The notes beneath the pieces were generated by a model. That model had not been told where the DNA came from, did not search any database, and saw only the letters and a list, made by a program, of their open reading frames with translations. This document shows positions 7,463-30,657 of a stretch of DNA of 35,912 nt, piece after piece. How positions within the stretch are numbered: position 1 is the stretch's first letter; the number at the start of each line of letters is the position of its first letter. Both the position numbers and the translations under genes were made by a program. Source of the DNA: Thermoplasmata archaeon (GTDB taxonomy: Archaea; Thermoplasmatota; Thermoplasmata; Sysuiplasmatales; Sysuiplasmataceae); assembly GCA_021796895.1 (NCBI GenBank), contig JAKABN010000006.1:1-35912 (forward strand), written 5' to 3'.

Positions 7463-7463
7463 T

Positions 7464-7468: not shown

Positions 7469-7521
7469 TATAACTGAACGCCCAGGAAGTCAGCGAAAAA
7501 GCATCGTCCGTAGCCAATGAG

Positions 7522-8424
7522 ATGAACCGTGTGATTGTTGGAAAGAACGACACCATCATGAAGATGCTTGCTGCAATCTTTGCAGACGGCCACATACTGA
7601 TTGAGGATTTTCCAGGCCTGGCCAAGACTCTGATTGCAAGAAGCTTTGCCACGGTGATCGGTTGTGATTTCCGCAGGATTCAATTCACACCAGATCTCCT
7701 TCCCTCCGATATTACCGGCTCGAGCGTACTGAACAGGAAGAAAAATGAATTCGAGCTGAGAAAGGGACCGGTGTTCACAAACATTCTCCTCGCAGATGAG
7801 ATAAACAGGGCGCCGCCGAAGACACAATCCGCCCTTCTGGAGGCTATGCAGGAAAAACAGGCTACTATTGAGGGAAAAACGCATGTGATCGATAAACCTT
7901 TCATCGTGATGGCCACTCAGAATCCGATAGAGTACGAGGGCACATATCCGCTGCCGGAAGCACAGCTCGACAGATTCATGATGAAGATATCCGTAGGCTA
8001 TCCGGCGAAAGATGACGAGGCCGCTGTTTTGCGCGGAAGGAGAGAGAGGAGAAGGGAGGGTTTTGACATATCCCCGGCCATCGACCGTGAAACGCTGATG
8101 CGCATGCAGAGCGAGACTGAGGAAGTCCACGTGTCGGAAGAGATGGAAAGATACATAGTGGAAGTGGTACGAGCCACGAGGACACACCGTTCTGTCGAAA
8201 TCGGCGCGTCGCCCAGAGGATCACTTTCCCTCATGAGGCTGAGCATGGCAGGCGCGTGCATAAGAGGGAGGGATTTTGTCACTCCCGACGATGTAAAGGA
8301 ATTCGCGGCGAACGCACTTGCGCACAGGCTGATACTCAAGCCGGACCCGTGGCTCAGAGGTGTGAGAACGGAAAATATCATTGCAGAAGTGCTGGAACAC
8401 GTGCATGTTCCGAAGGTGGACTGA
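7522..8424 (+). CDS. MoxR family AAA+ ATPase
   Basis: A 300-residue MoxR ATPase. Walker A is EDFPGLAKT (28-36), Walker B NILLADE (87-93) followed by the family hallmark INRAPPKTQSALLEAMQE, sensor 1 is ATQNP (131-135), the arginine finger is in EAQLDRF, and sensor 2 is in GASPRG (228-233). MoxR proteins act as chaperone-like ATPases working with VWA or DUF58 partners, which matches the next gene. The coordinates use the first conventional start, ATG. In-frame CTG at 7474 with GGTGA upstream may be the true start because family members carry an extra N-terminal helix. The gene shares its frame with the following DUF58 gene, separated by one TGA. Confidence 0.95.
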   Translation: MNRVIVGKNDTIMKMLAAIFADGHILIEDFPGLAKTLIARSFATVIGCDFRRIQFTPDLLPSDITGSSVLNRKKNEFELRKGPVFTNILLADEINRAPPKTQSALLEAMQEKQATIEGKTHVIDKPFIVMATQNPIEYEGTYPLPEAQLDRFMMKISVGYPAKDDEAAVLRGRRERRREGFDISPAIDRETLMRMQSETEEVHVSEEMERYIVEVVRATRTHRSVEIGASPRGSLSLMRLSMAGACIRGRDFVTPDDVKEFAANALAHRLILKPDPWLRGVRTENIIAEVLEHVHVPKVD

Positions 8425-8451
8425 CTGACAGGAAAGGGATTTCTGGTTGCA

Positions 8452-9672: not shown

Positions 9673-10208
9673 TGCCCGTACGCGAGAGAAGCGCAGGACA
9701 GGCGATGACAATCGTCATGACTGCATCGGTGCCAGTGATGGCGCTGTTTGATGCCGGAGCATATTTGTTTTTCGCGGTGATGCTTGCAATCGTCGCCATT
9801 CTCGCGCTCGCTGGCGTCAGACGTGCTGTCTGTGTAGTGTACACGGCTACCGTTCTGATTTTCATATCGATTGAGAAAGGCAGCCCGATTTCGATGGCGT
9901 TCGATATCCTGCTGATTATGACGGTGCTCACATCATTTGTTATCCCGCCTGATAAGGCGTGGCATGGAGACATGGAAATAAGTGTGACGAAGGAACCAGG
10001 TGCTTCTGCCGGCGGCCTTCTGAGACTGTCATTGCTCTTCATTCTGGCCCTGACCTCTGCTATGATCGTGGGTTTCCTTTCCGGCCTCCTCGGCATCAGG
10101 GTATCGAGTATCGTGATACTGCTGCCTCTCCTCTGTCTTGGTCTTCTAATAGTCGCGATGGCAGGTAGAGCGGTACTGCGAACGCCAGCGGTCAAAAAAC
10201 ACCCATGA
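9672..10208 (+). CDS. multi-TM membrane protein closing the DUF58 cluster
   Basis: A 178-residue, strongly hydrophobic protein with about five predicted helices (about 12-48 as two, 54-72, 78-92, 116-136, 146-165) and a short charged loop near 95-110. No family is recognised. Its ATG overlaps the DUF58 stop and GGGAGG precedes it, so it is translationally coupled. It occupies the place of the polytopic protein found after DUF58 in haloarchaeal clusters. A membrane partner of the MoxR/DUF58 complex is a reasonable inference. Confidence 0.78.
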   Translation: MPVRERSAGQAMTIVMTASVPVMALFDAGAYLFFAVMLAIVAILALAGVRRAVCVVYTATVLIFISIEKGSPISMAFDILLIMTVLTSFVIPPDKAWHGDMEISVTKEPGASAGGLLRLSLLFILALTSAMIVGFLSGLLGIRVSSIVILLPLLCLGLLIVAMAGRAVLRTPAVKKHP

Positions 10209-10218
10209 ATCTGCGCCT

Positions 10219-10235
10219 GCCGGGCGAAACCCGGC
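10219..10235 (+). terminator. GC hairpin after the DUF58 cluster
   Basis: GCCGGG-CGAAA-CCCGGC is a perfect 6-bp stem beginning 11 nt after the preceding stop codon. No U tract follows at once, so termination is not certain. It could be an RNA-end or processing structure. Confidence 0.4.
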
Positions 10236-10257
10236 ATAATGTGCTCACCGGGCGACA

Positions 10258-10267
10258 TTTTAATTAA
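10258..10267 (+). promoter_or_regulatory. TATA box for the MoxR2-VWA pair
   Basis: TTTAATTAAT follows the hairpin and predicts an RNA start near 10290, about 35 nt before the GTG of the second MoxR gene. This suggests a transcription unit separate from the DUF58 cluster. Confidence 0.5.
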
Positions 10268-10325
10268 TGAAATGGCATAGACTGAACTGGTAAAATCAGC
10301 ATGGATGCGTACGAAATAATCCGGA

Positions 10326-11291
10326 GTGGCTGAATTGCGGGAAATTACAATGGGTCGCGAATCACTGGACAGGGCCGTTGGAGGTATAAAATCAAAGCAC
10401 TCCATAATAGGAAGAGAAATAGAGCTGAGGAAAGCACTGATTTGTGCAAACGCGCATAGACACATTCTTATTGAAGGGCCTGTAGGCGTGGGCAAGACAG
10501 TCCTTGCGACGGCAATAGCAGACTATCTGGAAAGACCGATTTTGCGAGTCGACGGTGATGAGCGATACACAGAACAGAAGCTCACTGGATGGTTCGATCC
10601 ACCGATTGTCATGCAGAAGGGGTACAACGAGGAGTCATTCATCGACGGGCCGCTGACCCAGTCAATGGAGACCGGAGGCATACTGTTCATCAACGAACTC
10701 AACAGGCTGAATGAAGGAGTGCAGAATGTCCTCCTGCCAGCCATGGATGAGGGCAAGATTGAGATACCGAGAATAGGCACAATCTATGCGAAGAAAGGTT
10801 TCCTCATAATCGCAACGCAGAATCCTAGAGAGTTCATTGCCACCAGCTCTCTTTCGGAGGCGCTTTCAGACCGCTTCGAGCTTCTTCCTCTGACATATCA
10901 GAATGAGGATGAGGAGAGAAACATTGTTGAGACACGCACTGGCATTCATGATGAACATTCGACACGCCTGATAACCGAAATAACCAGGGAAACTCGGGTG
11001 CACCCGTTCGTAAGACGCGGCGCCTCGATCAGGGCGGCCACCAGTATGGCATCCATCATAGCATTTACCGAAAGAGATATTGAGGACATCAGGAACGCCG
11101 CATACCTCGCTCTGCCGACGAGAATGGAGCTTCGTGAAGATTCCAAGAAAAATGTGTACGAAGTGATCGACGAGATTATTGACAAGGTTGTCAGCAGGAA
11201 CCCCGTTTCGGCTGAGGGGAAGGAGGACACGGGAGGTCCGGAAGATACTGCTGAAGGAAAAGACGGGGAAAAAAAAACGATCGGGAGATAA
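10326..11291 (+). CDS. MoxR-type AAA+ ATPase, VWA-partner class
   Basis: A 321-residue AAA+ ATPase. Walker A is GPVGVGKT (51-58). Walker B is GILFINE (118-124), with Asn where many AAA+ proteins have Asp, followed by LNRLNEGVQNVLLPAMDEG. Sensor 1 is IIATQNP, and the Arg finger is in EALSDRFE (178-185). It is clearly distinct from the first MoxR. Its partner is the downstream VWA protein, as in MoxR-VWA and chelatase I/D pairs. The last about 30 residues are acidic then lysine-rich, encoded by an A9 run that offers a -1 frame into the VWA gene. GTG 10326 is the first start in frame; TTG 10335 or ATG 10350 are possible. Confidence 0.93.
   Translation: MAELREITMGRESLDRAVGGIKSKHSIIGREIELRKALICANAHRHILIEGPVGVGKTVLATAIADYLERPILRVDGDERYTEQKLTGWFDPPIVMQKGYNEESFIDGPLTQSMETGGILFINELNRLNEGVQNVLLPAMDEGKIEIPRIGTIYAKKGFLIIATQNPREFIATSSLSEALSDRFELLPLTYQNEDEERNIVETRTGIHDEHSTRLITEITRETRVHPFVRRGASIRAATSMASIIAFTERDIEDIRNAAYLALPTRMELREDSKKNVYEVIDEIIDKVVSRNPVSAEGKEDTGGPEDTAEGKDGEKKTIGR
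11269..11277 (+). other. A9 run containing an A_AAA_AAA slippery heptamer
   Basis: Nine adenines follow GGGG near the MoxR2 3' end. In the MoxR frame, 11270-11276 reads A AAA AAA, a canonical simultaneous-slippage heptamer. The -1 frame has no stop from here to the VWA ATG at 11321 and continues into that gene. The normal frame ends 12 nt later at TAA 11289-11291. Confidence 0.5.
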
Positions 11292-11320
11292 GTCAGGAGC
11301 CGGAGAGTGCTCTTGATATA

Positions 11321-12190
11321 ATGGAGAGACTGCGCGGGATCGTCGACATACCGTCCGGAACTGGAGATGAAGTGGTATGGTCGATTGCCAAGAATTATCA
11401 GAGGATCAGGCTCAGGGCCAAGGATCCTTCGCTGATCAGGGCGGCCAAGAGGATAGCAATCAGGGCCATAATCGACAGGACACTGGAGGAGCTTGGTCCT
11501 ACAAGGATGCCTATGGTAAGAAAACTGATAGACTATTCTCCGGGCGTAGACGGAGAAATAGATCTGTCGGGCACGCTGGACAACATCTCCTCCCCCTCAT
11601 CGATTGACTACAGGCAGATTGTGGTGGAAAAAAAAGATCTGAAACGCATAGCATGTGTGCTGATCATAGACGCCAGCCTTTCGATGACAGGTGAAAAACT
11701 TGCAATGGCCACCAGCTCTATTGCTGTGCTGGCGCAAAGGCTCAAAGGGATAGAATATGCCGTGATTCTATTCGAGAACAGAGCAAACGTGATAAAGAAA
11801 ATGGACAGAGATGTTGATCTTGAGAAACTCATAGGGGATCTGCTCGACCTCAATGCCATGGGATACACAAATATTGAGGAAGGGCTTAAGGCGGGCATCT
11901 CCGAGCTGGACAAGGCAAAGACGCCGAACAGGATAGGCATAATAATTACGGACGGCAACTACACAATGGGGCATGATCCAAGGCAGTTTGCGGCGCTCTT
12001 CCCCAGATTGCATGTGATGATGACGACCGGACTGGATGCCAGGGAGGACATATGCAACGGCATGGCGCAGCAGGGCAAGGGAAAGATGTATGAGATTAGC
12101 AATTACGAACAGATGCCCGGCGTGCTGTACAGTATGATAAAGACATTTCATTTCAGACTATCCGTCGGCGGTGGCGGAGCAAAAGGCTGA
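11321..12190 (+). CDS. von Willebrand factor A domain protein
   Basis: A 289-residue protein. The N-terminal about 105 residues are basic and helical, and the VWA domain starts near 108. A full MIDAS is visible: DASLS at 117-121, Thr183 in GYTN, and Asp211 in ITDGN. It is the expected metal-dependent partner of the AAA+ ATPase encoded 29 nt upstream. ATG 11321 is the first start in its own frame. The Shine-Dalgarno candidates (GGAG near 11296 and 11302) are rather distant, which leaves room for production as a frameshifted MoxR-VWA fusion. It ends in a Gly-rich tail. Confidence 0.92.
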   Translation: MERLRGIVDIPSGTGDEVVWSIAKNYQRIRLRAKDPSLIRAAKRIAIRAIIDRTLEELGPTRMPMVRKLIDYSPGVDGEIDLSGTLDNISSPSSIDYRQIVVEKKDLKRIACVLIIDASLSMTGEKLAMATSSIAVLAQRLKGIEYAVILFENRANVIKKMDRDVDLEKLIGDLLDLNAMGYTNIEEGLKAGISELDKAKTPNRIGIIITDGNYTMGHDPRQFAALFPRLHVMMTTGLDAREDICNGMAQQGKGKMYEISNYEQMPGVLYSMIKTFHFRLSVGGGGAKG

Positions 12191-14713: not shown

Positions 14714-15679
14714 TCATCTCCTCATGCGCGGGTCGAGTATGTCCCTCAGACCGTCGCCAAGGAGATTCAGACCAAGTGAATACATGAGAATGGCGAGACC
14801 TGGAACGACGAACGTCCATGGTTCCTGCAGAGCCCCGGTTATGCCGACACCAGTATATTGGAAATATGTGGCAAGATTTCCCCACTCCGGCAGATAAATG
14901 AAGTTTATGCCGATGTTGATGTAGTCGAGCGCGGCAAGCAGCAGGACAACAGATCCGACATCCAGCGACATCTGAACGAACACCGGATATATGGAGTTGG
15001 GTATGATATGCCGGAAAATAATTCTGAGCGTACGGGCACCCGAGGCTTTTGCAGCTTCCACGTACTTCAGCTCTCTGACTGACAGCACCTGCCCTCTCAC
15101 AAGTCTCGCGTAAGTTGGCCACCAGATTATAACCAGTGACATCACCAGGAGAGTCATGACACCTCCGGCCACATGCGCGAAATCCTGCCGGAAAACAACT
15201 ATCATTGCAATTGCAAGGACTATGAACGGAATCGAGAAGAAAATGTCCGTAACACGCATCAGTATGTCGTCTACTATTCCGCCTTTGTATCCGGCGAATG
15301 CTCCGAGCAGTATCCCTATTGTTGCGCCAGCACCGACAACAGCAAGGGAAATTGCGAGGTCAATTCTGGCTGCCTTGATTATCGCAGGCAGCAGATCGAT
15401 GCCAAAATACGTGGTGCCCAGAGGATACTTCCACGTCTGGAACCATGGTATGAAGCTATTGAGCAGTCTTCTGATAGAGTGTAGTTCATAAGGATTGCCC
15501 GTTGTCATCCAGGGAGAGAAAATGGCAAGGAAAACAAAGAAGGATGTTATGAAGAGTCCGGCGAGCGCCAGAGGACTCTGCTTGAAATAATAGAATTGTC
15601 TCCTGAACTGTGCGATTCTTGGAAGAATGCTGCGCAGCGCAGAACGCTGTGACTTTTTCATTAACGTAGCGCCAGTCAA
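14714..15679 (-). CDS. peptide ABC transporter permease, DppC/OppC type (transporter A)
   Basis: A 321-residue permease with six membrane helices. The first is at about 36-55, then the short extracytoplasmic stretch to YPLGTTYFGIDLL (equivalent to the usual HxLGTDxxGRDxL), then five helices. The ABC-coupling EAA loop is EAAKASGARTLRIIFRHIIPNS near 211-232. It forms the channel with the DppB-type subunit encoded 14 nt upstream. The length is normal, in contrast to its counterpart in transporter B. The substrate is presumably oligopeptides; Thermoplasmata commonly grow on peptides. Confidence 0.93.
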   Translation of the reverse strand: MTGATLMKKSQRSALRSILPRIAQFRRQFYYFKQSPLALAGLFITSFFVFLAIFSPWMTTGNPYELHSIRRLLNSFIPWFQTWKYPLGTTYFGIDLLPAIIKAARIDLAISLAVVGAGATIGILLGAFAGYKGGIVDDILMRVTDIFFSIPFIVLAIAMIVVFRQDFAHVAGGVMTLLVMSLVIIWWPTYARLVRGQVLSVRELKYVEAAKASGARTLRIIFRHIIPNSIYPVFVQMSLDVGSVVLLLAALDYINIGINFIYLPEWGNLATYFQYTGVGITGALQEPWTFVVPGLAILMYSLGLNLLGDGLRDILDPRMRR

Positions 15680-15693
15680 TGTTTCATCTCCCT

Positions 15694-16788
15694 TCAGCCC
15701 AGCCTGACTCTAGGATCGAGATATGCGTACACGATATCGACGATAAGATTCGCGGTAACGATTATTATGGCGAACACAAACACGGATGCCATTATTGATG
15801 CGAAGTCGTTGACAATGGCAGCCTCCGCGAGCCAGTATCCGATCCCAGGCCAGAAGAATATCGCTTCAGTTATAACAACGCCGCCCATCAGCGAAGCAAG
15901 AAGCAGTCCCAGTATTGTGACCGTCGCGGAATACGCGTTTCTCTTCACATGTCTGTTGATAACGCGTTTCTGCGGCAGACCTTTGGCTCTCGCAGTTCTG
16001 ACGTAATCCTGACCCATGGCATCCAGCATGCTGGACCTCAGAAAACGCACTATTGCACCCATACTGGTAAGCGCGACTGTCAGAGCAGGCAGCGCTATAT
16101 GTTCCAAACCGTTGATGAATGCTGGCATATCCCCATAGATGAGCGTGTCCAGAAGAAGAAAACCGGTCGGACGGGTACTCAGAATGGTCGTGCCCTGGTG
16201 AACAACCCACGGTTCGAAACTGCCATTGGCAGTGAAGTAATATTGCAGACCGATGGAACCGGTAATAGAGGTGATTGGCACAATAGGCGTGACAAAGAAG
16301 AGGACAAGCAGGCCCAACCAGAACGTCGGTGTCGAGTAACTTATCATCGCCCAAAGCCGGGACGCATGATCCGGGAGTTTATCTCGCCTGACCGCAGATA
16401 TGACGCCCAACGGTATCGACATAATTACGACAAGTATAATGGAAGCGATCGCCAGTTCAATCGTATTGGGGAGTCTTTCCTGCATCACCTGGAAAACTGG
16501 TCTGTTCGCGACGAGAAAATCGGTGCTGGTCGTGGTTCCCCAGTCGCCCAAAAGGAGACCTTTCATGTAATAAAAGTACTGGATGTAAACAGGAGAGTGC
16601 AGGTGGTATATTGCAATTATTTTCTGTTCCTGCTTAAGCAGCTGGGAGCTGGAAGTGTGCCCGGGGACCATGGACCTTATCCAGACAGCGATGTTTGCTC
16701 GCGTAAGGGCAAACGTAAAAGCAGTGACTCCAAGAACCACCGGAATCAGCAACAACAGTCTCCTTATGATGTAAGTCGTCATCTTCAT
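15694..16788 (-). CDS. peptide ABC transporter permease, DppB/OppB type (transporter A)
   Basis: A 364-residue permease. It has the DppB N-terminus TYIIRRLLLLIPVVLGVTAFTF, the GDWGTT segment after the first loop, and an EAA loop YVRTARAKGLPQKRVINRHVKR near 262-283. It ends in DPRVRLG, like most DppB proteins. It is slightly long because the loop between the third and fourth helices (FTANGSFEPW and onward) is extended by about 30 residues on the outer face. It may have its own promoter at 16859-16870, since 183 nt separate it from the upstream ATPase F gene. Confidence 0.93.
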   Translation of the reverse strand: MKMTTYIIRRLLLLIPVVLGVTAFTFALTRANIAVWIRSMVPGHTSSSQLLKQEQKIIAIYHLHSPVYIQYFYYMKGLLLGDWGTTTSTDFLVANRPVFQVMQERLPNTIELAIASIILVVIMSIPLGVISAVRRDKLPDHASRLWAMISYSTPTFWLGLLVLFFVTPIVPITSITGSIGLQYYFTANGSFEPWVVHQGTTILSTRPTGFLLLDTLIYGDMPAFINGLEHIALPALTVALTSMGAIVRFLRSSMLDAMGQDYVRTARAKGLPQKRVINRHVKRNAYSATVTILGLLLASLMGGVVITEAIFFWPGIGYWLAEAAIVNDFASIMASVFVFAIIIVTANLIVDIVYAYLDPRVRLG

Positions 16789-16858
16789 GTTACGATCAAC
16801 CGCCTGTGACTGCTTCCATGATCACATTTTCCATAACCGCTTGACGTACCTTCGTCTG

Positions 16859-16870
16859 CGTATTTAACAG
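16859..16870 (-). promoter_or_regulatory. possible internal TATA box for permeases B and C
   Basis: On the minus strand CTGTTAAATACG sits about 75 nt before the permease B ATG, in the 183-nt gap (16789-16971). The gap also holds CTCCT/AGGAG (16893-16908), a weak inverted repeat; nothing else was recognised in it. Confidence 0.4.
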
Positions 16871-16971
16871 TTAATTTGATGCGATAACTGAGCTCCTGTC
16901 CAAAGGAGAATTTGGGAGCGAGTGCAGAAAATTGTGTGAATGCCATCCTTTCACCAGCTTCTTGATTGACG

Positions 16972-18249
16972 TCATCTCTCTTTCGTGAGCACTGACTCGT
17001 CGAAATGCTCGCCAGCGATGACGCTTGCTTTCTCTGCCGCGTCTATTATCCTTTTATCCATTTTGTGTATAAGGTGGCAGGCAACCTGATGTCCTGTATT
17101 ATTCCAGTCTCTGAGCCTGGGCTCTTCTTCTTTGCATATCTGTTCCGCATAAGGACATCTTGTTCTGAATCTGCATCCGCTCGGAGGGGATGCGGCACTC
17201 GGCACATCTCCTGAAAGAATTATTCGTTCCCTCCTGAGAAGCGGATCGGGAATCGGAATTGCCGAAATCAGAGCCTGAGTGTACGGATGCAGGGGATGAA
17301 CGAACAACTCTTCCGTTTCGGAAACTTCCACTATCTTGCCCAGATACATTACCAGGACCCTGTTGCACATTGCCCTGATAACGCTGAGATGATGGGAGAT
17401 GAAGAGATATGACACGCCGTTTTTCGTCTGAAGATTCCTGAGCAGGTTGAGTATCTGAGCCTGCACGGAAACGTCGAGTGCAGATGTAGGCTCATCCAGC
17501 ACAATGAACTTAGGATTCAGTGCCAGCGCTCTCGCGACGCATATTCTCTGCCTCTGACCGCCACTAAATTCATGCGGGAATCTGTAGAGATGTTCTTCAT
17601 TGAGACCGACGTCTTTGATGAGGGACAAAACACGTTCGTTTATTTCGCTCTTCGTCATACTGCCCTCGCGACGTTCTGCCCTGACGTGATCTGCACCCGA
17701 GGATGCGCCGGAGGGCGCATTTGCCTTTTTCTCCCTTTTCGTCCCGCGGCTGTATATGTGAAGCGGCTCGGCGAGGATCTCCTTCACCAGCATTCTCGGA
17801 TCCAGAGATGCAAACGGATCCTGAAAGACTATTTGCATAGTCTTCCTGATCTCCCGGAGATGCCTCCCTCTTGCCTTGAAAATGGAGTACTTCACCGATA
17901 TATCGCCAATTTTGCGGATTATCTCTTCGCTGCGCTTTGGGTCAGTTCCCTCCTCTTCCAGAGAACGGTACAGCGCATCTATTTCCCGCGAAACATCTTC
18001 AGGAGCATTGACAAAAGCCTGGCCCGCGGTAGGCTCGAGCAGTCTCAAAATGGTTCTGCCCGTTGTTGTCTTACCGCATCCGCTTTCACCTACAAGACCA
18101 ACCGTTTCTCCTTCATATATCTGGAACGAAAGGTCGTCGACAGCGTGAACGTAGCCTATGCTCCTTGACATTACTCCTGCCTTGATCGGGAAATGCTGTT
18201 TGAGATGCCTCACATCCATGTAGAGGTGGCCCTTATTGATTGTCAACAC
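16972..18249 (-). CDS. peptide ABC transporter ATP-binding protein, DppF/OppF type (transporter A)
   Basis: A 425-residue ATPase. Walker A is GESGCGKTT (54-62), the Q-loop VFQDPFASLDPR near 141-152, the signature FSGGQRQR (228-235), Walker B FIVLDEP (248-254), H-loop ISHH, and the C-terminal Cys-rich CRFRTRCPYAEQIC that in this family can hold an Fe-S cluster or metal. Two insertions enlarge it: about 40 residues of charged helix between Walker A and the Q-loop (about 82-130), and about 30 residues after the Q-loop (about 168-200) rich in Ala, Ser, Gly and charges. GTG 18249 overlaps the upstream ATPase D stop by 17 nt; ATG 18219 is an alternative start. Confidence 0.93.
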   Translation of the reverse strand: MLTINKGHLYMDVRHLKQHFPIKAGVMSRSIGYVHAVDDLSFQIYEGETVGLVGESGCGKTTTGRTILRLLEPTAGQAFVNAPEDVSREIDALYRSLEEEGTDPKRSEEIIRKIGDISVKYSIFKARGRHLREIRKTMQIVFQDPFASLDPRMLVKEILAEPLHIYSRGTKREKKANAPSGASSGADHVRAERREGSMTKSEINERVLSLIKDVGLNEEHLYRFPHEFSGGQRQRICVARALALNPKFIVLDEPTSALDVSVQAQILNLLRNLQTKNGVSYLFISHHLSVIRAMCNRVLVMYLGKIVEVSETEELFVHPLHPYTQALISAIPIPDPLLRRERIILSGDVPSAASPPSGCRFRTRCPYAEQICKEEEPRLRDWNNTGHQVACHLIHKMDKRIIDAAEKASVIAGEHFDESVLTKER

Positions 18250-19765
18250 CTCCGAACAGGAAACAGCTTACTGTGTGCCCCCTGGAAACCTCTACTGTTG
18301 CCGGCACCTTTGACCTGCATACATCCATAACATAGGGACATCGCGGGTGGAACCTGCATCCTGCAGGTGGTTTAAGCAGATTAGGAACGTTGCCCTGGAT
18401 GGTTATGAGTCTCTTCCCCGGCATGTCCAGTCGGGGTATTGCAGAAAGCAATCCTTTTGTGTAGGGATGTAGCGGATTCTTGAAGATATCCGTCACCGTA
18501 GCTGTTTCTGCGACGAGACCTGCGTACATGACAGCGACGCGATCACAGACTTCTGATATGACACCCAGGTCGTGGGTTATGAGCATGATTGATGCGTTGG
18601 TGCTTTTCTTGAGTTTCTTCATCAGATCCAGTATCTGCGCCTGAATCGTCACATCGAGTGCTGTGGTAGGTTCATCGGCAATAAGTAGTGAAGGGTTGCA
18701 GGAAAGCGCCATGGATATCATTACGCGCTGCTGCATGCCGCCGCTCAGCTCGTGCGGATAGCTGCTGAGAACCTTATGCGGATCCTGAATACTGACCTGT
18801 TTGAGCAGCTCCTCGACCCAGCCCGAAATCTCCATATTCATGGACCTCCTGCATTCCCTGTAAGCGACGACATTGAGCTTCCGGAGTGCAATTCTAAGCC
18901 TGAAACGTCCCGCTTCGGAAGATAGCTTACCGACAGTTCTCAGGTCGCTTCCGGCGAGTATTGCATTCCTCACGGTCTTCATTTGCGCGTCGAGTTCCTT
19001 TTCGAGTCTGAGGATCTCCCTGGCGGATTTTGAGATAGAACCTATTTTTGCGACGCGCGCTGCTTCCCTGAGTCTTCTGCTTCTCTTCTGACCCTTTGAC
19101 GTTATTGCATCATAAATCTGAATTTGCTGTCGCGGGTCGCTAACATGACTGGATATCGCAAGCAAGGCAAATTTCCTGAAGTCGTCACTGTTCGTTCCAG
19201 AAATGTCAAACTCCTCTATCAGCTTCCTCATGTCCGAAATGTAGCCTGGCATGCTGGCCCCCTTTTTGCTGAATATAGAATCTATGATTTCGGATTTCCT
19301 GTGCATCAGCAATGCTTCGCCGACCTGTCTTTCTACTGTCAGCACAGGATTCAGCGCAGTTGTGGGTTCCTGGAATATCATAGATATCTCCCTTCCCCTT
19401 ATGCCCTCGAATATTCTCTCCGTGAGTTTTATGGCCCGCCTGTTCCTTTTGATCTTGATCCTGCCGCGCTTTCCATTGGAGTACCTGGCTTCATAAGGAA
19501 GATATCTCGTAAGATCTGCGCCTTTGAAGAGTATACGCCCCGAAACAATTCTCCCAGGCGGATCCTGTATCAGCTTCAGCACGGAGAATGCAGTAACACT
19601 CTTGCCGCATCCTGTCTCACCAACGATGCCCAGTGTTTCCCCCCTCCTGACGTGAAGCGTTACTCCGTCGAGAGCCTTCACGATGCCATCATACACAAAA
19701 AAGTATGTTTTCAGATCCTCCACACTGAGCAAGATGTCCGGATCCTGTTCATTATTACTGCCCAT
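18233..19765 (-). CDS. peptide ABC transporter ATP-binding protein, DppD/OppD type, with about 150-residue insertion (transporter A)
   Basis: A 510-residue ATPase where about 330 is usual. Walker A is GETGCGKS (49-56), the Q-loop [11 protein letters not shown] (130-140), the signature LSGGMQQR (340-347), Walker B LLIADEP, the H-loop ITHD, and the C-terminal [14 protein letters not shown] cysteine motif. The Q-loop and signature are about 205 residues apart instead of about 55. The extra segment (about 155-325) is basic and mostly helical with heptad-like stretches ([26 protein letters not shown]). All catalytic motifs are intact, so the protein should be active. It has its own TATA box at 19798-19807. 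Confidence 0.93.
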
Positions 19766-19797
19766 AACGAATGCGAGGGCACTTTAATTGATAACTG

Positions 19798-19807
19798 TAT
19801 TTAATTA
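19798..19807 (-). promoter_or_regulatory. TATA box for the transporter A ATPases
   Basis: On the minus strand TAATTAAATA lies about 37 nt before the ATPase D ATG, predicting a leader of about 10 nt. The ATPases may thus be transcribed apart from the binding protein. Confidence 0.5.
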
Positions 19808-19888
19808 TTTTCAGCTTTGACTCGGCGGCATTCTAAAAAACGACACGTAAACAGCATTCACGAGCAGGAAGAGAAATACAGATGCATA

Positions 19889-19916
19889 CAAAAATGAAAA
19901 TGACAACGATAAAATG
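19889..19916 (-). terminator. T-tracts after the transporter A binding protein
   Basis: On the minus strand several T4-T5 runs (ATTTTATCG, CATTTTCATTTTTG) follow 40-70 nt after the binding protein stop. Clustered T runs are typical archaeal terminators. Confidence 0.4.
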
Positions 19917-19956
19917 TTTGGGAAAGAGGTTTGAGAGGTGGCTTGTGTGTGGTCTC

Positions 19957-22902
19957 TCACTTCGATACCGGGAACAGTATCAGGAAGGTGAGTGCTGCAG
20001 ACGGCGACAGTGACCAGTCGAGAGATGCGGGCTTGATCCACGACCTGTAGAACACTATGCCTATCGGCTGTATGTTTCCCACTATCATGTCCAGCCTGAC
20101 TGACAGAGAGTCGGACAGCCAGTAGTCATACGCCCTCTGCGCAGCATTGAGCTCTCCTGCGCCGGCGGCACTCGCATTCCACATGGCATTGATCATCGAC
20201 CACTGGTGCGGGTTCGTAGTCTGATTGAATCCAGGTCCGGGATACCACCCGTCAGGGAACGAATATATGCCGAGGGGCTGAACGAATGGAGCGGCGAAGT
20301 CGGTCGGGTCAGGATAGTCGGCTATCCATCCCAGGAAATACAGCGGCATTGGATTCTGCCCTGCAGGAACGGCCGTAGCGGTAAGCAGCGTGGCGAAGTT
20401 TACATCAGCAAGGTATGGCTTGACTGAATGGTTTGTTGCATTCTCTATAGCCGGAACCCAGTAGGATTGTATCATTTTATCCTGTATCGGACTCCCGCTG
20501 ATCGAGAATATCGGGAATTGTATCGAGTTGGCTGAAGCGCTTTTATATGGCGAGCTATTCCAGTACTGTTTTGCAAGCGTCATGTTGTAGGTTGGTGCTG
20601 TGGGGGTTTTGCTTATATTGGTCGGATAATCCGCCAGTCCGTTCGGAATATATCCAGTAAGATTCGTTGCTGTGGATATACCACTGTTAGTACCCATTGC
20701 AACATACTGTGCCTGGTCGAACGCGTAGGTGAATGCCCTTCTCACGCTGAGATTGCCGAAGAAAGTTGACACCTCCCAGCTGCCTGCAGCATTAGCTGCA
20801 GTTTGACCGGATGCATTCTCCCAAACAATACTTGAATTCGGGAAACTGACCGCCGATGCGAGTGATTTCAACGCAGTAACGTTGACCTGCGTAACGAAGA
20901 ACCATGTGAACAGAGCAAGCTGCGGGGTGTTTATCGAGCCCGCCTGACCCGCGTGTATCATGCTGAGGACCTGCGGGAATGAGCTTGGAGGATATGCACC
21001 CTCGGCAAAGTCCGCCGCCCCGGTCTGGAACGCCAGCTGCGCAACAGATTCGGATGTGTAGTAGTAGATTGTTATTGTGGGCTGCATTGCAGAAAGCGAT
21101 GGATAGTCTATTGTCTGTGTGAAGTTCTGGTTGGGAATGAAGCTTATCATCTGACCGGGGACCAGTGCCTGTATAACGTACGGACCTGTTCCCATTGTAC
21201 CGAACTGAAGCTTCGTGTTCCAGGAAGAGGGGTTGCCGTAAGCCGAGTAGTTCAGGAATGCCATAGAGTAAGGCGCGGTCGGCGAGAAGGAGCCTATGCC
21301 TGCACCGCTCGCGTTAGCCCACGCCGCATCCATGACAAACGCAATAGGCTGAACCAGCAGCTGCATGAAATAGGACGGAGCGCCGAACGATGAATACTCC
21401 GTGGTCGCAAGACCGTTCGCAAGCGCAGTGCTCGTATTCATCTGTGTACCTGTGGCCATAAACGCTGCATTTGTTCCGCTCTCAGGGGAGACGCCGAACA
21501 GCGACTGGTTCGTGGTGGGCAGAATGTGGAATGTAATGGAGCTGGAGTTCTTCATTGTCATTGCGTGGTTGACCCAAAACGGGCTTGTGTTGAAGTAACC
21601 ATATATCGAATCACCGGGGATCAGGGCGTGGGCTGTCAGCCATCCGGGTCTGCCTGGATCATTAGCAAACAACAGACCCCTCAGGACAGAGAAGTACACA
21701 TCATATGATGTCACGGGCTGTCCGTTTGCAAACTTGGCCGAAGGGTTCAGATTAAACGTATAGTTGACATATGTGACGCCGTTGGATGTGACACTGGTAA
21801 GAAGACCATTCTGTTGTGTCGGGACAGCTGTTGCGAGAACAGGTATGTATGACGATGCGCTTGTTCCTGGAGCATACTGCACTAGTGGTTCATACAGGTT
21901 GTAGATGGCTTCGTAACTGACCGTGTCGTATGCTATGGCGGGGTCAAGGGTGGAGAAACCACCCGGAATCCACGTTGCATCAACTATGCCACTGTGAGTC
22001 GAAGGCGTTGTGGAGTGCTTTGGAGAATACGCTCCGACAGCGGCGGTTTGAACGAAAGTCCATGTCGAAGTCGTGGTACTCTTGTTTGTCACTGCCGTAA
22101 GTGTCATCGGGTATATGCCGGCAGACAGGCTGGTCCCGTTGAAGTCGACGCCGTTGCCTACCTGAGTGGCATTAAAGACCGAAGACGTTTTCGTGCCTAT
22201 CGAGAACGTCATTGACTGAAGAGCCCATCCGGCTGTAATCGGGTAGCTTGAATAACTCGACGGCACGAGATAAGTGACATCGATATATCCGCCGGGGGAC
22301 ACAACGTTGGGGAAACCTGCAGAGAGGTTCTGACTGTTTGCCGAACTGCTTGCAACCTGAATTGCAGCAGGGAACTGCTGCGGTACTTCAGTCGATGTTA
22401 CGCTAGGTGTAATCGATACTGGCACAAGACCAAAACTGTTGTTGGCCACAAAATTGGAAGTCGTGACAAGCTGGTCGTAAACAAGATAGTTTCCGGGGTT
22501 CGGATACACATACTGGACGCTCAAACCCGTTGAGCCGCTGTATGTCTTCACGACACCATCCCCGAAGTTCCATGTTATGTTCTTAATAGAAGACGAAGAG
22601 ATGGTCGTCCCCGAATAGAAGGTTATCGCGGTCCCTTGGCTTGCCACGCTGTAACTCGCATAGGACGACAGCACCCCTGGCTTCTGAGGAGTTGTCGTCG
22701 GCTTAGACAGAGACAAATAGATTCCCAGACCGGCGACTATCAGAACAATCACAAGAACGACGGCAATTATCATCGTTCTCGAGCGTCCTCCCATCGATGG
22801 GGGAGGGGTTATTCCCTGCGCGCCAGCAGGGCCCGTACTTCCGCCAGCGGGGGTATTCGCCGATCCACTCAATGCTGAAAAGATCCTTACATTCATTTTC
22901 AT
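19957..22902 (-). CDS. membrane-anchored peptide-binding protein with PKD-like domain (transporter A)
   Basis: About 981 residues from ATG 22902. A Gly/Pro/Ser-rich cytosolic tail of about 40 residues precedes one membrane helix (about 43-65). A PKD-like domain follows, with the hallmark WNFGDG and a VYPNPGNYLVYD strand near 107-150. Then comes a second beta-rich region and, from about residue 315 (GGFSTLDPAIAYDT), an SBP_bac_5 peptide-binding domain to the end. More than 20 N-x-S/T sequons suggest heavy glycosylation on the cell surface. ATG 22902 is favoured over TTG 22923 by AGGGAG upstream. It captures oligopeptides for the permeases and ATPases downstream. It has no C-terminal anchor, unlike the transporter B protein. 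Confidence 0.9.
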   Translation of the reverse strand: MKMNVRIFSALSGSANTPAGGSTGPAGAQGITPPPSMGGRSRTMIIAVVLVIVLIVAGLGIYLSLSKPTTTPQKPGVLSSYASYSVASQGTAITFYSGTTISSSSIKNITWNFGDGVVKTYSGSTGLSVQYVYPNPGNYLVYDQLVTTSNFVANNSFGLVPVSITPSVTSTEVPQQFPAAIQVASSSANSQNLSAGFPNVVSPGGYIDVTYLVPSSYSSYPITAGWALQSMTFSIGTKTSSVFNATQVGNGVDFNGTSLSAGIYPMTLTAVTNKSTTTSTWTFVQTAAVGAYSPKHSTTPSTHSGIVDATWIPGGFSTLDPAIAYDTVSYEAIYNLYEPLVQYAPGTSASSYIPVLATAVPTQQNGLLTSVTSNGVTYVNYTFNLNPSAKFANGQPVTSYDVYFSVLRGLLFANDPGRPGWLTAHALIPGDSIYGYFNTSPFWVNHAMTMKNSSSITFHILPTTNQSLFGVSPESGTNAAFMATGTQMNTSTALANGLATTEYSSFGAPSYFMQLLVQPIAFVMDAAWANASGAGIGSFSPTAPYSMAFLNYSAYGNPSSWNTKLQFGTMGTGPYVIQALVPGQMISFIPNQNFTQTIDYPSLSAMQPTITIYYYTSESVAQLAFQTGAADFAEGAYPPSSFPQVLSMIHAGQAGSINTPQLALFTWFFVTQVNVTALKSLASAVSFPNSSIVWENASGQTAANAAGSWEVSTFFGNLSVRRAFTYAFDQAQYVAMGTNSGISTATNLTGYIPNGLADYPTNISKTPTAPTYNMTLAKQYWNSSPYKSASANSIQFPIFSISGSPIQDKMIQSYWVPAIENATNHSVKPYLADVNFATLLTATAVPAGQNPMPLYFLGWIADYPDPTDFAAPFVQPLGIYSFPDGWYPGPGFNQTTNPHQWSMINAMWNASAAGAGELNAAQRAYDYWLSDSLSVRLDMIVGNIQPIGIVFYRSWIKPASLDWSLSPSAALTFLILFPVSK

Positions 22903-22953
22903 TCTACTCCCTTGATTTCCCAAATCAAGTTTATTGCCGATAAGAATTATGCG

Positions 22954-25493: not shown

Positions 25494-25899
25494 GGAAAAT
25501 CACGAAAGCGGCGGCCAGATAGAGCAGGCCTATGCAGATGTATATCATTGTGAGTATGAACTGCTGCCTGAACACATACTCCAGATCTTCGTCGCCGAAC
25601 GGCATGCTGTGATCAACGAGATCCTGAACATACATCTTTGCTCCGAAGTCCCAGAACGCTCCTATGAACATTACCACGACCCCCATTATGAAAAGCAGTA
25701 TTGGCATCACGACGATGTAACTGAAAATGCCGATCGTTGACAGAAGAAATGCTCCGCTGAGAAAAGAGGGAAGGAAAGCCAGAGGAGGGACCGCATATTT
25801 CACGAGTGCTTTACGGGTCGACGCTGTCAATTCGGCGGGGACCGCGTCTTTGATCACTGTGGTAGATTTTCCGGGTGCACGGCTGGCACGGCGCTTCAA
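25486..25899 (-). CDS. three-TM membrane protein, last gene of transporter B operon
   Basis: A 137-residue protein with a basic N-terminus, three hydrophobic segments (about 36-58, 62-84, 113-136) and an acidic loop MPFGDEDLEYVFRQQ between the second and third. TTG 25899 overlaps the stop of the fused ATPase gene (TTGA), implying translational coupling and a link to transporter B. No family is recognised. It may be an accessory membrane subunit of the unusual transporter. The 3' end overlaps the convergent two-TM gene by eight nt. Confidence 0.65.
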   Translation of the reverse strand: MKRRASRAPGKSTTVIKDAVPAELTASTRKALVKYAVPPLAFLPSFLSGAFLLSTIGIFSYIVVMPILLFIMGVVVMFIGAFWDFGAKMYVQDLVDHSMPFGDEDLEYVFRQQFILTMIYICIGLLYLAAAFVIFLI

Positions 25900-28388
25900 G
25901 ATGCGAACAACTCTTTCGCTTCCTGCATTTTCTTTTTCAAAAGTGTGTCGTCGTTGCTGTTTGAGGTCAGAGCTTCCAGTTCTCCTGCAGCGGTTTCCAG
26001 CGAATCGACATCCGCGTCAGGGCGTCTGCTCTTCTCTGCAGAAATGCGTTCACGAAAACTCTTGACCAAATCGAGAGACTGTCCCCTCAGGGCTGTCTTT
26101 TCCTTCTTTATAGCCATCAGTTCCGACTGAGTGAAATGGCACAGATACCAGCGTTCCCCGACCTCTCTTTTCCCGGGCGGATTGTCCGCGCAGATTTCCT
26201 GCCTGTAAGGGCATCTGTCCAGAAATCTGCAGCCCGCGGGAACAAATGCAGCGCTGCCTATTTCGCCGTATATTTCCAGCCGGCCGGGATTCCATGCTGG
26301 AGTCGGCAGAGGCACCGCCTGGATCAGAGCCTTCGTGTACGGATGCAGTGGTTCCTTTATTATGCTCTCGGATTCGCCGAGTTCAACAGCCACGCCGAGG
26401 TACAAAACCATGATCCTGTCAGAAAGATACCGTGCAGAAGCTATGTCGTGAGTTATGTAGAGTATGGTTATTCCCTCCTCATTTCTGAGGCGGAGGAGAA
26501 GATTCATGAATCCTGCGCGGAGCGAAACGTCGAGCATCGATATTGGTTCGTCGGCAACGAGAAACTGCGGTTTAAGAACAAGTGCCCTTGCCGCTGCTAC
26601 ACGCTGTCTCTCACCTCCGGAGAGTTCGTGAGGGTATCTATCTAGGAATGTTTCAGGTGGATGCAGCCGAACGGTTCTCAGCGCTTCCTTAACCAATTCC
26701 ATCATCTTTTCAGGGTTCATGGTTGTCCTGTAGGCGATGATGGGCTCCGCAACGATGTCCATTACTGTCATTTTTGGATCAATTGAATCATAGGGGTCCT
26801 GGAATATCAGCTGCGTGTCACGCCTGAATGCCCTGTGCAGGCTGTCGTTTTCCTTCACATTCTTCACGTCCAGTTGAACATGATTCGAGGATCCGGCATT
26901 ATGCTCAGGCGTCTTTGCAGGCACTTCATTCTTCAGAGAGAGTAGAAATCCCCATCGCACAAATTTCCAGATATGAGCAGGCGTCTTTGCAGGCACTTCA
27001 TTCTTCAGAGAGAGGTCGTATATCATCCTTCCTTCAGATGGCTCGAGAAGCCCCAGCAGCGTCTTGCCAAGTGTTGTCTTCCCGCTGCCGCTTTCACCCA
27101 CGACTGAAAAAATCTCCCCTTTACGGATCTTCACATCCAGTTTTTCCACGGCGCGGACAATTGTCCTGGACCCTGCCCGACTGAACACTTCACCCAACAG
27201 TGTTCCGCGAAGATGAAAAAACTTTGAAAGGTGTTCTATGTCGAAAAGCGTCTTACCGCCGCCCGGGACAACCTCCCGCAACACGATGTCACTGTCGGTG
27301 TCTGCTGACGGCTCTTTCAGCAATCCGGATGAAATGTCACTCGCAAAATGACAGAGGCTCTTGTGGCCATTTCCGACATCCACAAAGGGCGGATCTTCCT
27401 TAGTGCAGATTTCCCGGCGTAAAAGGCATCTGGAAGCGAAGCGGCACCCCGGCGTCAGATGGAGCTGGTCTGGTGGTGAACCGGGAATGCCCCTCATAAC
27501 AGATCTTGCCTTTGCTATTGAAGGATAGCTGTCCAGAAGGGCTCTCGTGTAGGGGTTGGCCGATCTCAGATAAATGTCATCTATGCTACCGAACTCCATC
27601 AGTTTTCCGGCATATAGAACGGCGACCTTGTCTGCGAGCTGGGATACCACACCGACGTCGTGGGAGATGATTATCATCGAATCGATTGATGTTCTGCGCA
27701 GCTTCTTCAGCTCGGTAATTATTTTAGCCTGCGTTATCACATCGAGTCCTGTCGTAGGTTCATCGGCTATGACCAGCTTGGGATTGAGTGCGAGTGCCAT
27801 GGCTATAATGGCCCTCTGTTTCATGCCGCCGCTCAGCTCATGAGGATAAGAATTCAGAATAACCGGGTTGAGTCCCGCTTTCCTCACAGTCTGTACTACC
27901 TTTTCCTTTATCTCTTCCTTGGTCAGATCCGTATGCAGCCTGTACACTTCAGCCAGCTGTTTCTCAATGGTATAGACAGGGTTGAATGCATTCATGGAGC
28001 CCTGAAAGACGATAGATATGTTTTTCCACCTCAGTTCCCTAAGCTTCTCTGAAATCATCCTCAACTGCTTCCTCTTCACCTTCAGCAGGCCCGCCCCGGT
28101 GCTGCCTGAGGAAGCAACGGTGTCGCCTTCGAACTCTATGGTGCCCTCGACATGACCGTTTTCAGGAGTGAGAGAGATAATGGCGGATGCGAGCGTCGAC
28201 TTACCGGAACCGCTTTCGCCAAGTATGCCGAGTGTTTCACCATGGTTGAGCGAGAGAGAGATACCGTCGATTGCATGCACTCCGCCTTCGAATGTGTCGA
28301 AGGTCAGAGACAGGTTGTTTATCTTCAGTAATTCACGACCGTCTGATCCCGCAAATTTGTTTTCAGCGGTTCTCCCGGCACCGGCCAT
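25896..28388 (-). CDS. fused DppD-DppF peptide transporter ATPase (transporter B)
   Basis: An 830-residue double ATPase. NBD1 has Walker A GESGSGKST (57-65), Q-loop VFQGSMNAFNP, signature LSGGMKQR (185-192), Walker B LVIADEP, and the CRFASRC...C tail near 315-346. NBD2 has Walker A GESGSGKTT (431-439), Q-loop IFQDPYDSIDP near 528-538, signature LSGGERQR (589-596), Walker B FLVADEP, and CRFLDRCPYRQEIC. Each half keeps the oligopeptide family C-terminal Cys motif. NBD2 contains an in-frame insert (about 459-515) with a duplicated SLKNEVPAKTP. A charged helical tail of about 65 residues ends the protein. CAGGAGG precedes the ATG, one nt after the permease C stop. Confidence 0.95.
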   Translation of the reverse strand: MAGAGRTAENKFAGSDGRELLKINNLSLTFDTFEGGVHAIDGISLSLNHGETLGILGESGSGKSTLASAIISLTPENGHVEGTIEFEGDTVASSGSTGAGLLKVKRKQLRMISEKLRELRWKNISIVFQGSMNAFNPVYTIEKQLAEVYRLHTDLTKEEIKEKVVQTVRKAGLNPVILNSYPHELSGGMKQRAIIAMALALNPKLVIADEPTTGLDVITQAKIITELKKLRRTSIDSMIIISHDVGVVSQLADKVAVLYAGKLMEFGSIDDIYLRSANPYTRALLDSYPSIAKARSVMRGIPGSPPDQLHLTPGCRFASRCLLRREICTKEDPPFVDVGNGHKSLCHFASDISSGLLKEPSADTDSDIVLREVVPGGGKTLFDIEHLSKFFHLRGTLLGEVFSRAGSRTIVRAVEKLDVKIRKGEIFSVVGESGSGKTTLGKTLLGLLEPSEGRMIYDLSLKNEVPAKTPAHIWKFVRWGFLLSLKNEVPAKTPEHNAGSSNHVQLDVKNVKENDSLHRAFRRDTQLIFQDPYDSIDPKMTVMDIVAEPIIAYRTTMNPEKMMELVKEALRTVRLHPPETFLDRYPHELSGGERQRVAAARALVLKPQFLVADEPISMLDVSLRAGFMNLLLRLRNEEGITILYITHDIASARYLSDRIMVLYLGVAVELGESESIIKEPLHPYTKALIQAVPLPTPAWNPGRLEIYGEIGSAAFVPAGCRFLDRCPYRQEICADNPPGKREVGERWYLCHFTQSELMAIKKEKTALRGQSLDLVKSFRERISAEKSRRPDADVDSLETAAGELEALTSNSNDDTLLKKKMQEAKELFAS
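26906..27014 (-). repeat. 37-nt exact direct repeat (72-nt period) inside the fused ATPase gene
   Basis: The two copies, 26906-26942 and 26978-27014, are identical over 37 nt and separated by 35 nt. The 72-nt period equals 24 codons, so the reading frame is kept. They encode LSLKNEVPAKTP twice (residues 459-470 and 483-494) with a Trp-rich spacer (HIWKFVRWGF) between. They lie between Walker A and the Q-loop of the second ATPase domain, where homologues have a short variable loop. Confidence 0.9.
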
Positions 28389-28389: not shown

Positions 28390-30657
28390 CTACCGCCTCC
28401 TGAGCCGTGGATTCACGACTTCATCCATTCCCCTGGAAACAAAGACAAATGCAAAGATGAACATGGTAAGGGCGATTGAAGGGGGTAGTATCCACCATGG
28501 TGCTATTGCTGCAAAATAAAAGTTATTCAGTATAGGTTGCAACATCGATCCCCACGTGACAGTCGTGAGCGATACGACCCCGAGGAACTGAAGTGTTGAT
28601 ATCGCCGCAACAGCGCCGCCGATGTTTACGGCAGTGAGATAAGCGAGCAGGGGAGTCATGTTCGAAAGCATGTGTCGTCTGAGAATCTGCATGCTTCTTG
28701 CACCTGATACTTTGGCTGCTTCGATGAATGAATGTGACTTGATGGAGCGGACGAGACCGATTAGCGTGAACGTGGTGAATGGCCACGCGACGGCACTCAG
28801 AACCAGGATTGCGCCTTCCAGCGAGGGATTGAGTATGCTCGCAATGACAATCAGCAGCGCAATGAATGGAATCAGAAATATGACGAGCGAGAACGTCTCG
28901 AAGATAGAGCCGACAAAGCCGCCAAGATATCCGACTATCATGGCCACTACCACCGAGATTGCGATGGTTACGAGTGCCACACCGATACCGACTTCCCAGG
29001 CGGGAGCGAAACTGGCAATAAGCTGGCTCCAGACATCCTGTCCCTCAGTGTTGGTGCCCAGAAGATACACGTTACCTGAAGGAGAGTGAAGCGTAGGCGC
29101 AAAAGGATTGGTGTCATGACCCGACGTCGAGTAGACAGCCAGATAGCCGCTGCTGGTGAGAAACGCAAACGACTGGGCCCCGCTTTCAGAGTTTATCAGC
29201 AGAACGGGGCTCGAAATGCCCGCTCCCTTTGAAATAAGCGAGTAATCCACATGCCATTTTACCGTGACCTTGTTGGCCGACGGAAGTATGGCAATGAAAT
29301 TGCCAAGATTCGTCCCAGCCACAAAATTTCTTGTGTTGCCGTTGAAAATCGGCGAGAATGTGTATGAACCGAAGGGACCTGCAGGCAGGGCGACGGGCTT
29401 GGGAAACGGTGAATAACCGGCCATACCATTCATCAGGTAGAGGGCATCGTTCGTCTGCACTGCGAAATACTGCGGATTCGGTTCCGCGAGAGCCGAGGAG
29501 GATGATATGCCCGTCACAGAACCCGGTGCTGTGAATATTTTCTGGACCGTTCCGTTGGAGGCGAGTATCGAATAGACGTTGTTTCCTGAAGCGACATAAA
29601 CCTTGTTGTAAGAGTTGAAGCCGAGCTGATAACCATACGGGATGTACACGCCAACTCTCGTGTTGAGAGTGATGTTTGTATCTATGCTCCAAAATACTTT
29701 ACCCGAATACGGGTTTATCGAAGTGACGTTACTTCCCTGTTCGATCAACAGCATTGCCTGATTCGGGTTCTCGTAATAGTTTCCCATAAGGCAGGGCAAT
29801 GATGGCACAGAGCTGCCGTTGAGCCTGTAGCTCCAGGAGGGACTGAGCGGATAATCGTTGTAGGCGTTAACGTAATAGCTTCCATTCTTTAACACTACAA
29901 GATACAACTGACCGTTGGAGAAACCCAGTGGTACTGCGTTCTGTGAATCAAATGGTACCCATGGCGGCAGTCCGTATGTTGTCGGTTGGGCATTGGAAAC
30001 CGGTGGCAGGACCACTGTACTGTTGGTGAGATAAGTGCCGTTGTTGACAAGAAAAGGCTTTCCGGAACCGGGAATATTTGACCCGGACCATGCGACTCTG
30101 CCGATGTGCAGAATACCATTCGTGGTGACTACCGCAATATAATTGTCGAATGAGACGCTGTTGAATCCGGAGGAAACGAACCGCTGGTAATTGTTCAGCG
30201 GAAAGACGAGCGGTGCGTACATAGACGCTCCTGGTGGCAGAGAGAGATTAAGCATCGATATCAGCCGGCCGGGATATGGTCCGCCTGCTCCGCCGAGACC
30301 CACGCCGTAGACCTGGCCGTGGGGAGTTCCCACATAGACGACATAGCTGCCGGATGTGGAGAGAGCGGATGCTGCCGGAGGGTATTCTGAAATGTTCCAA
30401 CCCGGATTGTTTATTACGTGTGCATTGAGTTCTAGCGATGCTACGTATGCGTCTTCCTGAGGTGCAAAAAAAGTGTTTGCGTTGTGAAATTGAATAACCG
30501 GCGTCAGGATGGTTATCAAAGCAAATGCGACAAGTATGTAAAAGCCCGCTTTGCCATATGCAGAGTGATAATAAATCTTCCATTGTTTTCTGAACTGCCT
30601 GAATTGAAAATTAAAACGTTCTTTCCGGTAGCTCAACATTTCTGCGCCAACGGGCAT
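28390..30657 (-). CDS. DppC-type permease with large inserted beta-propeller-like domain (transporter B)
   Basis: About 755 residues, where a DppC permease has about 300. A basic N-terminus and one membrane helix (about 37-55) match DppC. About 475 residues follow that look like a PQQ/WD-type beta-propeller: repeated short strands such as YVVYVGTPHGQVYGV, YIAVVTTNGILHIGRV, NKVYVASGNNVYSILASNGTV and FAFLTSSGYLAVYSTSG. Permease sequence then resumes with LLGTNTEGQDVWSQL, five helices and the EAA loop EAAKVSGARSMQILRRHMLSN. The insert is therefore on the outer face and carries N-x-S/T sequons. ATG 30657 is chosen because AGGAGATGA lies four nt upstream; ATG 30678 would add seven residues. Confidence 0.92.
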   Translation of the reverse strand: MPVGAEMLSYRKERFNFQFRQFRKQWKIYYHSAYGKAGFYILVAFALITILTPVIQFHNANTFFAPQEDAYVASLELNAHVINNPGWNISEYPPAASALSTSGSYVVYVGTPHGQVYGVGLGGAGGPYPGRLISMLNLSLPPGASMYAPLVFPLNNYQRFVSSGFNSVSFDNYIAVVTTNGILHIGRVAWSGSNIPGSGKPFLVNNGTYLTNSTVVLPPVSNAQPTTYGLPPWVPFDSQNAVPLGFSNGQLYLVVLKNGSYYVNAYNDYPLSPSWSYRLNGSSVPSLPCLMGNYYENPNQAMLLIEQGSNVTSINPYSGKVFWSIDTNITLNTRVGVYIPYGYQLGFNSYNKVYVASGNNVYSILASNGTVQKIFTAPGSVTGISSSSALAEPNPQYFAVQTNDALYLMNGMAGYSPFPKPVALPAGPFGSYTFSPIFNGNTRNFVAGTNLGNFIAILPSANKVTVKWHVDYSLISKGAGISSPVLLINSESGAQSFAFLTSSGYLAVYSTSGHDTNPFAPTLHSPSGNVYLLGTNTEGQDVWSQLIASFAPAWEVGIGVALVTIAISVVVAMIVGYLGGFVGSIFETFSLVIFLIPFIALLIVIASILNPSLEGAILVLSAVAWPFTTFTLIGLVRSIKSHSFIEAAKVSGARSMQILRRHMLSNMTPLLAYLTAVNIGGAVAAISTLQFLGVVSLTTVTWGSMLQPILNNFYFAAIAPWWILPPSIALTMFIFAFVFVSRGMDEVVNPRLRRR

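Follow-up and report, generated by a model that had tools for sequence, protein, structure and literature searches.

The DppC/OppC-type permease encoded in the 35,912-nucleotide stretch of DNA analysed here (contig JAKABN010000006.1 of assembly GCA_021796895.1; hereafter, the window) carries a β-propeller within the outer segment that follows its first transmembrane helix. The window host, Candidatus Sysuiplasma (Thermoplasmata), is an acid-loving archaeon. In Dpp/Opp importers, almost all of the work outside the membrane falls to a binding protein, which is either soluble or anchored. The fold and position of the propeller, its ancestry within one clade, the purifying selection acting on it and its operon were each established by computation, and the anatomy of the propeller permease is given here with high confidence. 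Both the kind of permease and the kind of propeller are known; what is new is their combination in one chain, its spread through a class and the existence of sister versions. The initial annotation of this DNA, made from the letters alone, had named long outer insertions that are both common and already described as evidence against its reading. The architecture proved to be common within Thermoplasmata rather than unique to the window genome, but no description of it was found in the open-access literature, a scope that leaves subscription papers outside and hence offers no proof of novelty.

RESULTS

Permease core, site of insertion and operon

The reading frame of the permease runs to position 30678, and position 30657, at which the initial annotation had started the gene, is an internal ATG (Met8; Table 1). 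PF00528 (BPD_transp_1) matched residues 576–761 (E = 2.4e-15; 57.2 bits against a cut-off of 26.4), and NCBIfam Opp4C matched residues 532–758 (E = 7e-34), though its 117 bits missed the equivalog cut-off of 350, so that the window permease is assigned to the superfamily and not to an exact Opp/Dpp type. The OppC_N helix-1 domain (PF12911) was not matched in the window protein; it scored weakly in close relatives (17.8 and 21.1 bits; cut-off 23.9) and clearly in sister families. In the AlphaFold2 model of the full protein (29 relatives in the alignment; mean pLDDT 82.8), Foldseek matched the core to the cryo-EM structures of E. coli DppC and M. tuberculosis OppC/DppC, with TM-scores by target of 0.64–0.74. 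The core had been described as intact, and LLGTNTEGQDVW, the EAA loop, which is largely invariant among relatives, and the further helices are indeed all present. Family-5 importers carry nickel and sugars too, and a peptide substrate is assumed here from the family.

Table 1 Features of the propeller-bearing permease and its operon, with positions in the window
Feature	Position	Strand	Evidence
Propeller-DppC permease, 762 aa	28390..30678	-	ORF, Pfam BPD_transp_1, NCBIfam Opp4C, AlphaFold2 model
Transmembrane helix 1, residues 44-62	30493..30549	-	Hydropathy, charge count, helix in AlphaFold2 model
β-Propeller ectodomain, residues ~78-522 (~445 aa), eight strand units by count	29113..30447	-	AlphaFold2, Foldseek, profile match
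Permease core, residues 533-762, LGTNTEGQD segment and further helices	28393..29082	-	Core profile, Foldseek
EAA (coupling) loop, residues 653-672, EAAKVSGARSMQILRRHMLS	28663..28722	-	Read off translation
DppB-type permease partner, 328 aa, ordinary outer segment	30694..31680	-	Pfam, helices
Family-5 solute-binding protein, up to 1370 aa	31780..35892	-	Pfam SBP_bac_5 (E 1.6e-39), Big_1, hydropathy
Fused DppD-DppF ATPase, 830 aa, two ABC_tran and two oligo_HPY	25896..28388	-	Pfam

By hydropathy and the core profile, the outer segment from helix 1 to the start of the core comprises 471 residues. The same measure gave 25–72 residues in the bacterial DppC homologues fetched, in agreement with the earlier statement that DppC outer segments are usually short, and 27 residues in the window's own short DppC (14714–15679). 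Comparison with bacterial DppC sequences identified HNANTFFAPQED near helix 1 and DTNPFAPTLHSPSGNVYLLGTNTEGQD near the core as the two halves of the usual short outer segment. Because both ends of the canonical segment are kept, the propeller was inserted within it, and the segment was not replaced, as had been thought. The large insertion itself is real and spans ~445 residues (29113–30447); the initial annotation had given ~475 (29065–30489).

The genes lie on the minus strand in the order binding protein (35892–31780), DppB, propeller-DppC and fused ATPase (ending at 25896), and thus include the binding protein, DppB and two ATPases of a family-5 operon, the ATPases being fused in one chain. 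Relatives in the window's subgroup likewise have DppD and DppF in one chain, and their operons are conserved with a long binding protein. The gene order recurs in most of the named relatives, with the binding-protein gene on the far side in three of them (L094, L096 and L106). After its SBP_bac_5 domain, the binding protein has an unusually long C-terminal stalk of ~600 residues, with a Big_1/Ig-like match below the cut-off. Helices lie near both of its ends (88–106 and 1331–1349), and the one near the C-terminus suggests that the protein is probably membrane-anchored.

The window also encodes a second, ordinary family-5 importer operon (14714–22923, minus strand), consisting of a short DppC, DppB, two ATPases and a PKD-containing binding protein. 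On the plus strand, positions 5938–12190 hold a cluster of DUF4129, DUF58, AAA_5/MoxR-like ATPase and VWA genes; clusters of this type are known.

Fold of the insert

AlphaFold2 predicted an all-β fold for the insert, both within the full protein (pLDDT ~90 across most of the insert) and alone (pLDDT 85.5; pTM 0.86). Searched alone against the PDB with Foldseek, the insert gave 457 matches with E < 0.001, the top ones mostly known β-propellers and the best being propellers of the WD40/PQQ/BamB type; with the full model, the TM-scores by target were 0.69 for BamB and 0.67 for the WD40 protein Sif2. The strand lists of the predicted insert fell, by manual count, into eight units of three to four strands. 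The predicted fold and the Foldseek matches thus bear out the propeller that had been suspected from repeated strand motifs.

The HMM search that the initial annotation had advised gave a divided answer. The PQQ_2 profile reached 12.8 bits in the window insert against a cut-off of 27.6, and nothing significant was found for this insert alone in Pfam, NCBIfam or PDB sequence searches, but the inserts of sister lineages passed the cut-off (scores of 70.9, 70.4, 38.8 and 36 bits; loci L047, L048, L053 and L059). PQQ_2 was also matched at E < 0.01 by 8 of the 29 window-type inserts taken by themselves, and hhalign aligned the profile of window-type inserts with PQQ-type inserts of other families (Prob 98.2; E = 6e-14; 254 columns). 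The sister scores and the profile match together identify the window insert as a diverged PQQ/BamB-type propeller. Unlike the propellers of this type whose predicted fold it shares, the window's copy sits in a loop of a membrane permease, is too diverged for Pfam and has no enzyme or BAM context.

Sidedness and selection

The 43 residues before helix 1 include ten K/R and four D/E, and under the positive-inside rule this positive N-terminus should be cytosolic, which would place the insert outside. In the inserts of 28 relatives, 327 N-glycosylation sequons were observed against 180 ± 12 after shuffling, and in the cores of the same relatives sequons were depleted (16 against 24); the window's own insert, with nine sequons against 7.1, is not significant alone. 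The positive N-terminus and the enrichment in the inserts of relatives thus support the location outside the membrane that the initial annotation had deduced from topology.

Where measurable, pairwise dN/dS was 0.03–0.16 for inserts and 0.005–0.08 for cores, and by amino-acid sites the insert evolves approximately 3–20 times faster than the core. The propeller domain is thus maintained under purifying selection, though it changes faster than the core.

Occurrence and ancestry

Because an alignment of the insert only was too diverged for a scan of genome contigs, 85,000 species genomes were scanned with the full-length alignment. The nearest match was Candidatus Sysuiplasma superficiale (L078); the remaining records matching the insert were all Thermoplasmata or Candidatus Thermoplasmatota, one being labelled Cuniculiplasma, and bacterial records matched the core only. 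Long frames can be DppB–DppC fusions (L170 and L171) or read-through (L172 and L173), so that open-frame length was dropped as a proxy for insertion, and only loci with a measured distance from helix 1 to the core were regarded as verified. By this measure, an outer loop of at least 400 aa was verified in 18 Thermoplasmata families, and the fold, length (~420–550 aa) and place of the insert were stable over many families. At least 79 of the 300 class genomes sampled had a DppC-core match in a frame of at least 600 aa, a figure that is indicative only, since some long frames are fusions or read-through. Propeller-DppC was absent from family f6, which is nearly devoid of DppC.

In the sample, DppCs of other classes of the phylum were of ordinary length, barring two DppB–DppC fusions, and those of Thermoproteota (the phylum of L143) were 300 aa long or middle-sized with unrelated inserts, L150 excepted. 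The outer segments of 190–320 aa in Thermoproteota were ruled out as the same domain, having no profile match and lying in another part of the tree. Among the best 150 matches in Bacillota, there were no frames longer than 600 aa, and the outer insert was absent from the two long Bacillota examples examined.

Maximum-likelihood analysis of 115 cores yielded a branch (94/88) that set apart 53 sequences, every one of them long-loop and L150 included. The 28 members of the window's group were nested inside this long-loop clade (100/100) on a very long branch (2.39), adjoining lineages with clear PQQ_2 matches. The simplest reading is a single insertion before the class diversified, followed by the rise of a fast-evolving subgroup with fused DppD–DppF. 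A propeller-type DppC from outside Thermoplasmatota (L150:284-1903; G376), nested in the Thermoplasmata clade, may reflect gene transfer or contamination of a metagenome-assembled genome (MAG). A second DppC copy on a contig of G007 (L046/L099) was present as two ORFs of 591 and 197 aa, split about between propeller and core; the stretch has ambiguous bases, so the split is probably an assembly flaw.

Other ectodomains in the class and fusions in the phylum

Different ectodomains were observed in the same permease family. A 1068-aa DppC (L050:6532-9738; also L051 and L054) carried a Kelch + PQQ ectodomain, a 1577-aa DppC (L069–L071) carried one of CARDB/InlB/Big_7 type, and in L065 and L074 PKD domains preceded the usual helix 1. 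The CARDB/Ig type lay elsewhere in the core tree and arose separately. In other Thermoplasmata families, DppB had an outer-loop domain of ~260–380 residues (L050, L053, L054, L056, L058, L059 and L063) with weak Big_13 or Y_Y_Y (Ig-like) matches; these domains were considered as copies of the DppC propeller and rejected as unrelated. DppB and DppC were fused in one frame at L100:8-2833, L160:4101-9197, L170:2245-4671 and L171:1724-3982, the fusions coming from at least two lineages of the phylum.

DISCUSSION

The window permease shares its core fold, the LGT(D/N)xxGxD segment, the EAA loop and its operon partners with the DppC/OppC proteins of solved family-5 importers (E. coli 8z1v/8z1w; M. 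tuberculosis OppC 8j5q and DppC 8wd9), and differs from them in its outer segment, which measures a few tens of residues in the solved proteins, and in the fusion of its ATPases. Large outer domains at transporters have precedents. MalF-P2 of the maltose importer is Ig-like, has ~180 residues and is placed between other helices. It is likewise a large outer domain in a type I importer permease, likened to the window insert by architecture and not by sequence. Reports listed among the references of PMC3150292 place MalE in contact with this large periplasmic region. The DppB outer segment of E. coli (scoop motif) enters the DppA cleft and seals the cavity (PMC12136057); this segment also follows helix 1 and meets the binding protein, but it has ~30 residues and belongs to DppB instead of DppC, and the corresponding segment of the window's DppB is ordinary in length. 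The Bacteroides propeller BtuG is a lid that caps and loads BtuB (PMC10404256) and is likewise a surface β-propeller at a transporter. It is, however, a lipoprotein of its own that sits on a TonB-dependent transporter of the outer membrane, whereas the window propeller belongs to the polypeptide of an ABC permease.

By analogy with these systems, we see roughly an even chance that the propeller, tethered through the permease, provides the binding protein with a platform for docking or capture. Positioned above the outer opening of the pore or next to it, the propeller would be a permanently tethered platform for both docking and capture, and would keep the long-stalked, probably membrane-anchored binding protein, or the loaded substrate, near the pore. 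The outer segment of DppB would then draw the peptide off into the channel. For an acidophile that lacks a periplasm, such an arrangement would raise the local concentration and keep released peptide from escaping. A docking platform had already been suggested in the initial annotation; it is plausible and accompanied by a weak co-variation with the binding protein, though this leaves contact unproven. Over 24 operons, the partial Mantel-type correlation of insert distances with binding-protein distances was 0.40 (permutation p = 0.0005) after removal of core, DppB and ATPase; the partial correlations with DppB, ATPase and core were 0.35 (p = 0.0025), 0.18 (p = 0.05) and 0.13 (p = 0.10), respectively. 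These values favour partners on the outside, and the correlation with the binding protein may come from the fast evolution common to surface proteins, that with DppB being nearly as high. Furthermore, the rate of the insert relative to the core does not indicate a rigid, conserved docking face, and the fact that other lineages have Kelch, CARDB/Ig and PKD domains at about this place suggests that the exact fold is not critical.

The main rival, possible but doubtful in our judgement, is that the propeller acts as an anchor, attaching the importer to the protein coat of the cell surface or to adjacent surface proteins, and takes no part in the transport cycle. According to the literature, archaeal surface-layer proteins have propeller, PKD and CARDB-like domains; in addition, permeases of this family bear CARDB, Ig-like, Kelch or PKD domains in other Thermoplasmata lineages, and the insert is fast-evolving, as surface adhesins are. 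However, the insert is stable in fold, length and place over many families, no surface-layer gene was found adjoining propeller-DppC, and the co-variation of the insert is strongest with the binding protein and DppB, all of which speaks against tethering; no evidence was found for the link to a surface enzyme or S-layer that the initial annotation had also offered. It is rather unlikely that the propeller is itself a substrate receptor, that is, a second, built-in domain, inherited class-wide, that would capture peptides and load the pore or the binding protein; this reading is modelled on the loading of BtuB by BtuG.

A protective cap or gate shielding the pore mouth at low pH would suit the acidic sites from which many relatives come, as inferred from genus names and papers, and the scarcity of charged residues in the insert (6.3%). 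Charge is similarly low in the binding protein (7.4%), though, and the ordinary short-loop DppCs in the same genome indicate that a cap is not required, making this function less probable still. The PQQ_2/BamB-type fold and the presence of tetrathionate hydrolase (6l8a) among the Foldseek matches raise the question whether the propeller acts on substrate at the pore as a PQQ-dependent or tetrathionate-hydrolase-like enzyme. We consider this very improbable: tetrathionate hydrolase ranks 16th and is matched no more closely than many propellers that are not enzymes, no family of enzymes was significant in Pfam or by profile against PDB sequences, and the invariant insert columns are Pro, Gly, Trp and one Asp near the N-terminal edge. 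Misassembly or read-through joining two genes could be suspected in a draft MAG of 241 contigs and 78.8% completeness, the more so as long open frames can mislead and read-through and fusion cases occur elsewhere; for the propeller-DppC family, this explanation is already refuted, since dozens of independent genomes, single-contig ones included, have propeller and core in one ORF with matching boundaries, and since the insert is under purifying selection.

A large archaeal group has thus put an ectodomain of ~45 kDa into its permease and kept it over at least 18 families, and other lineages of the class have Kelch, CARDB/Ig or PKD domains there instead, or a separate DppB ectodomain. Cuniculiplasma is a genus with cultured members. 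Since one genome record bears this name and some hosts in the clade are complete one-contig genomes, an experimental approach is possible. The propeller permeases offer a large family of naturally tethered receptor-permease designs and pose a testable question as to how importers function in cells without a periplasm.
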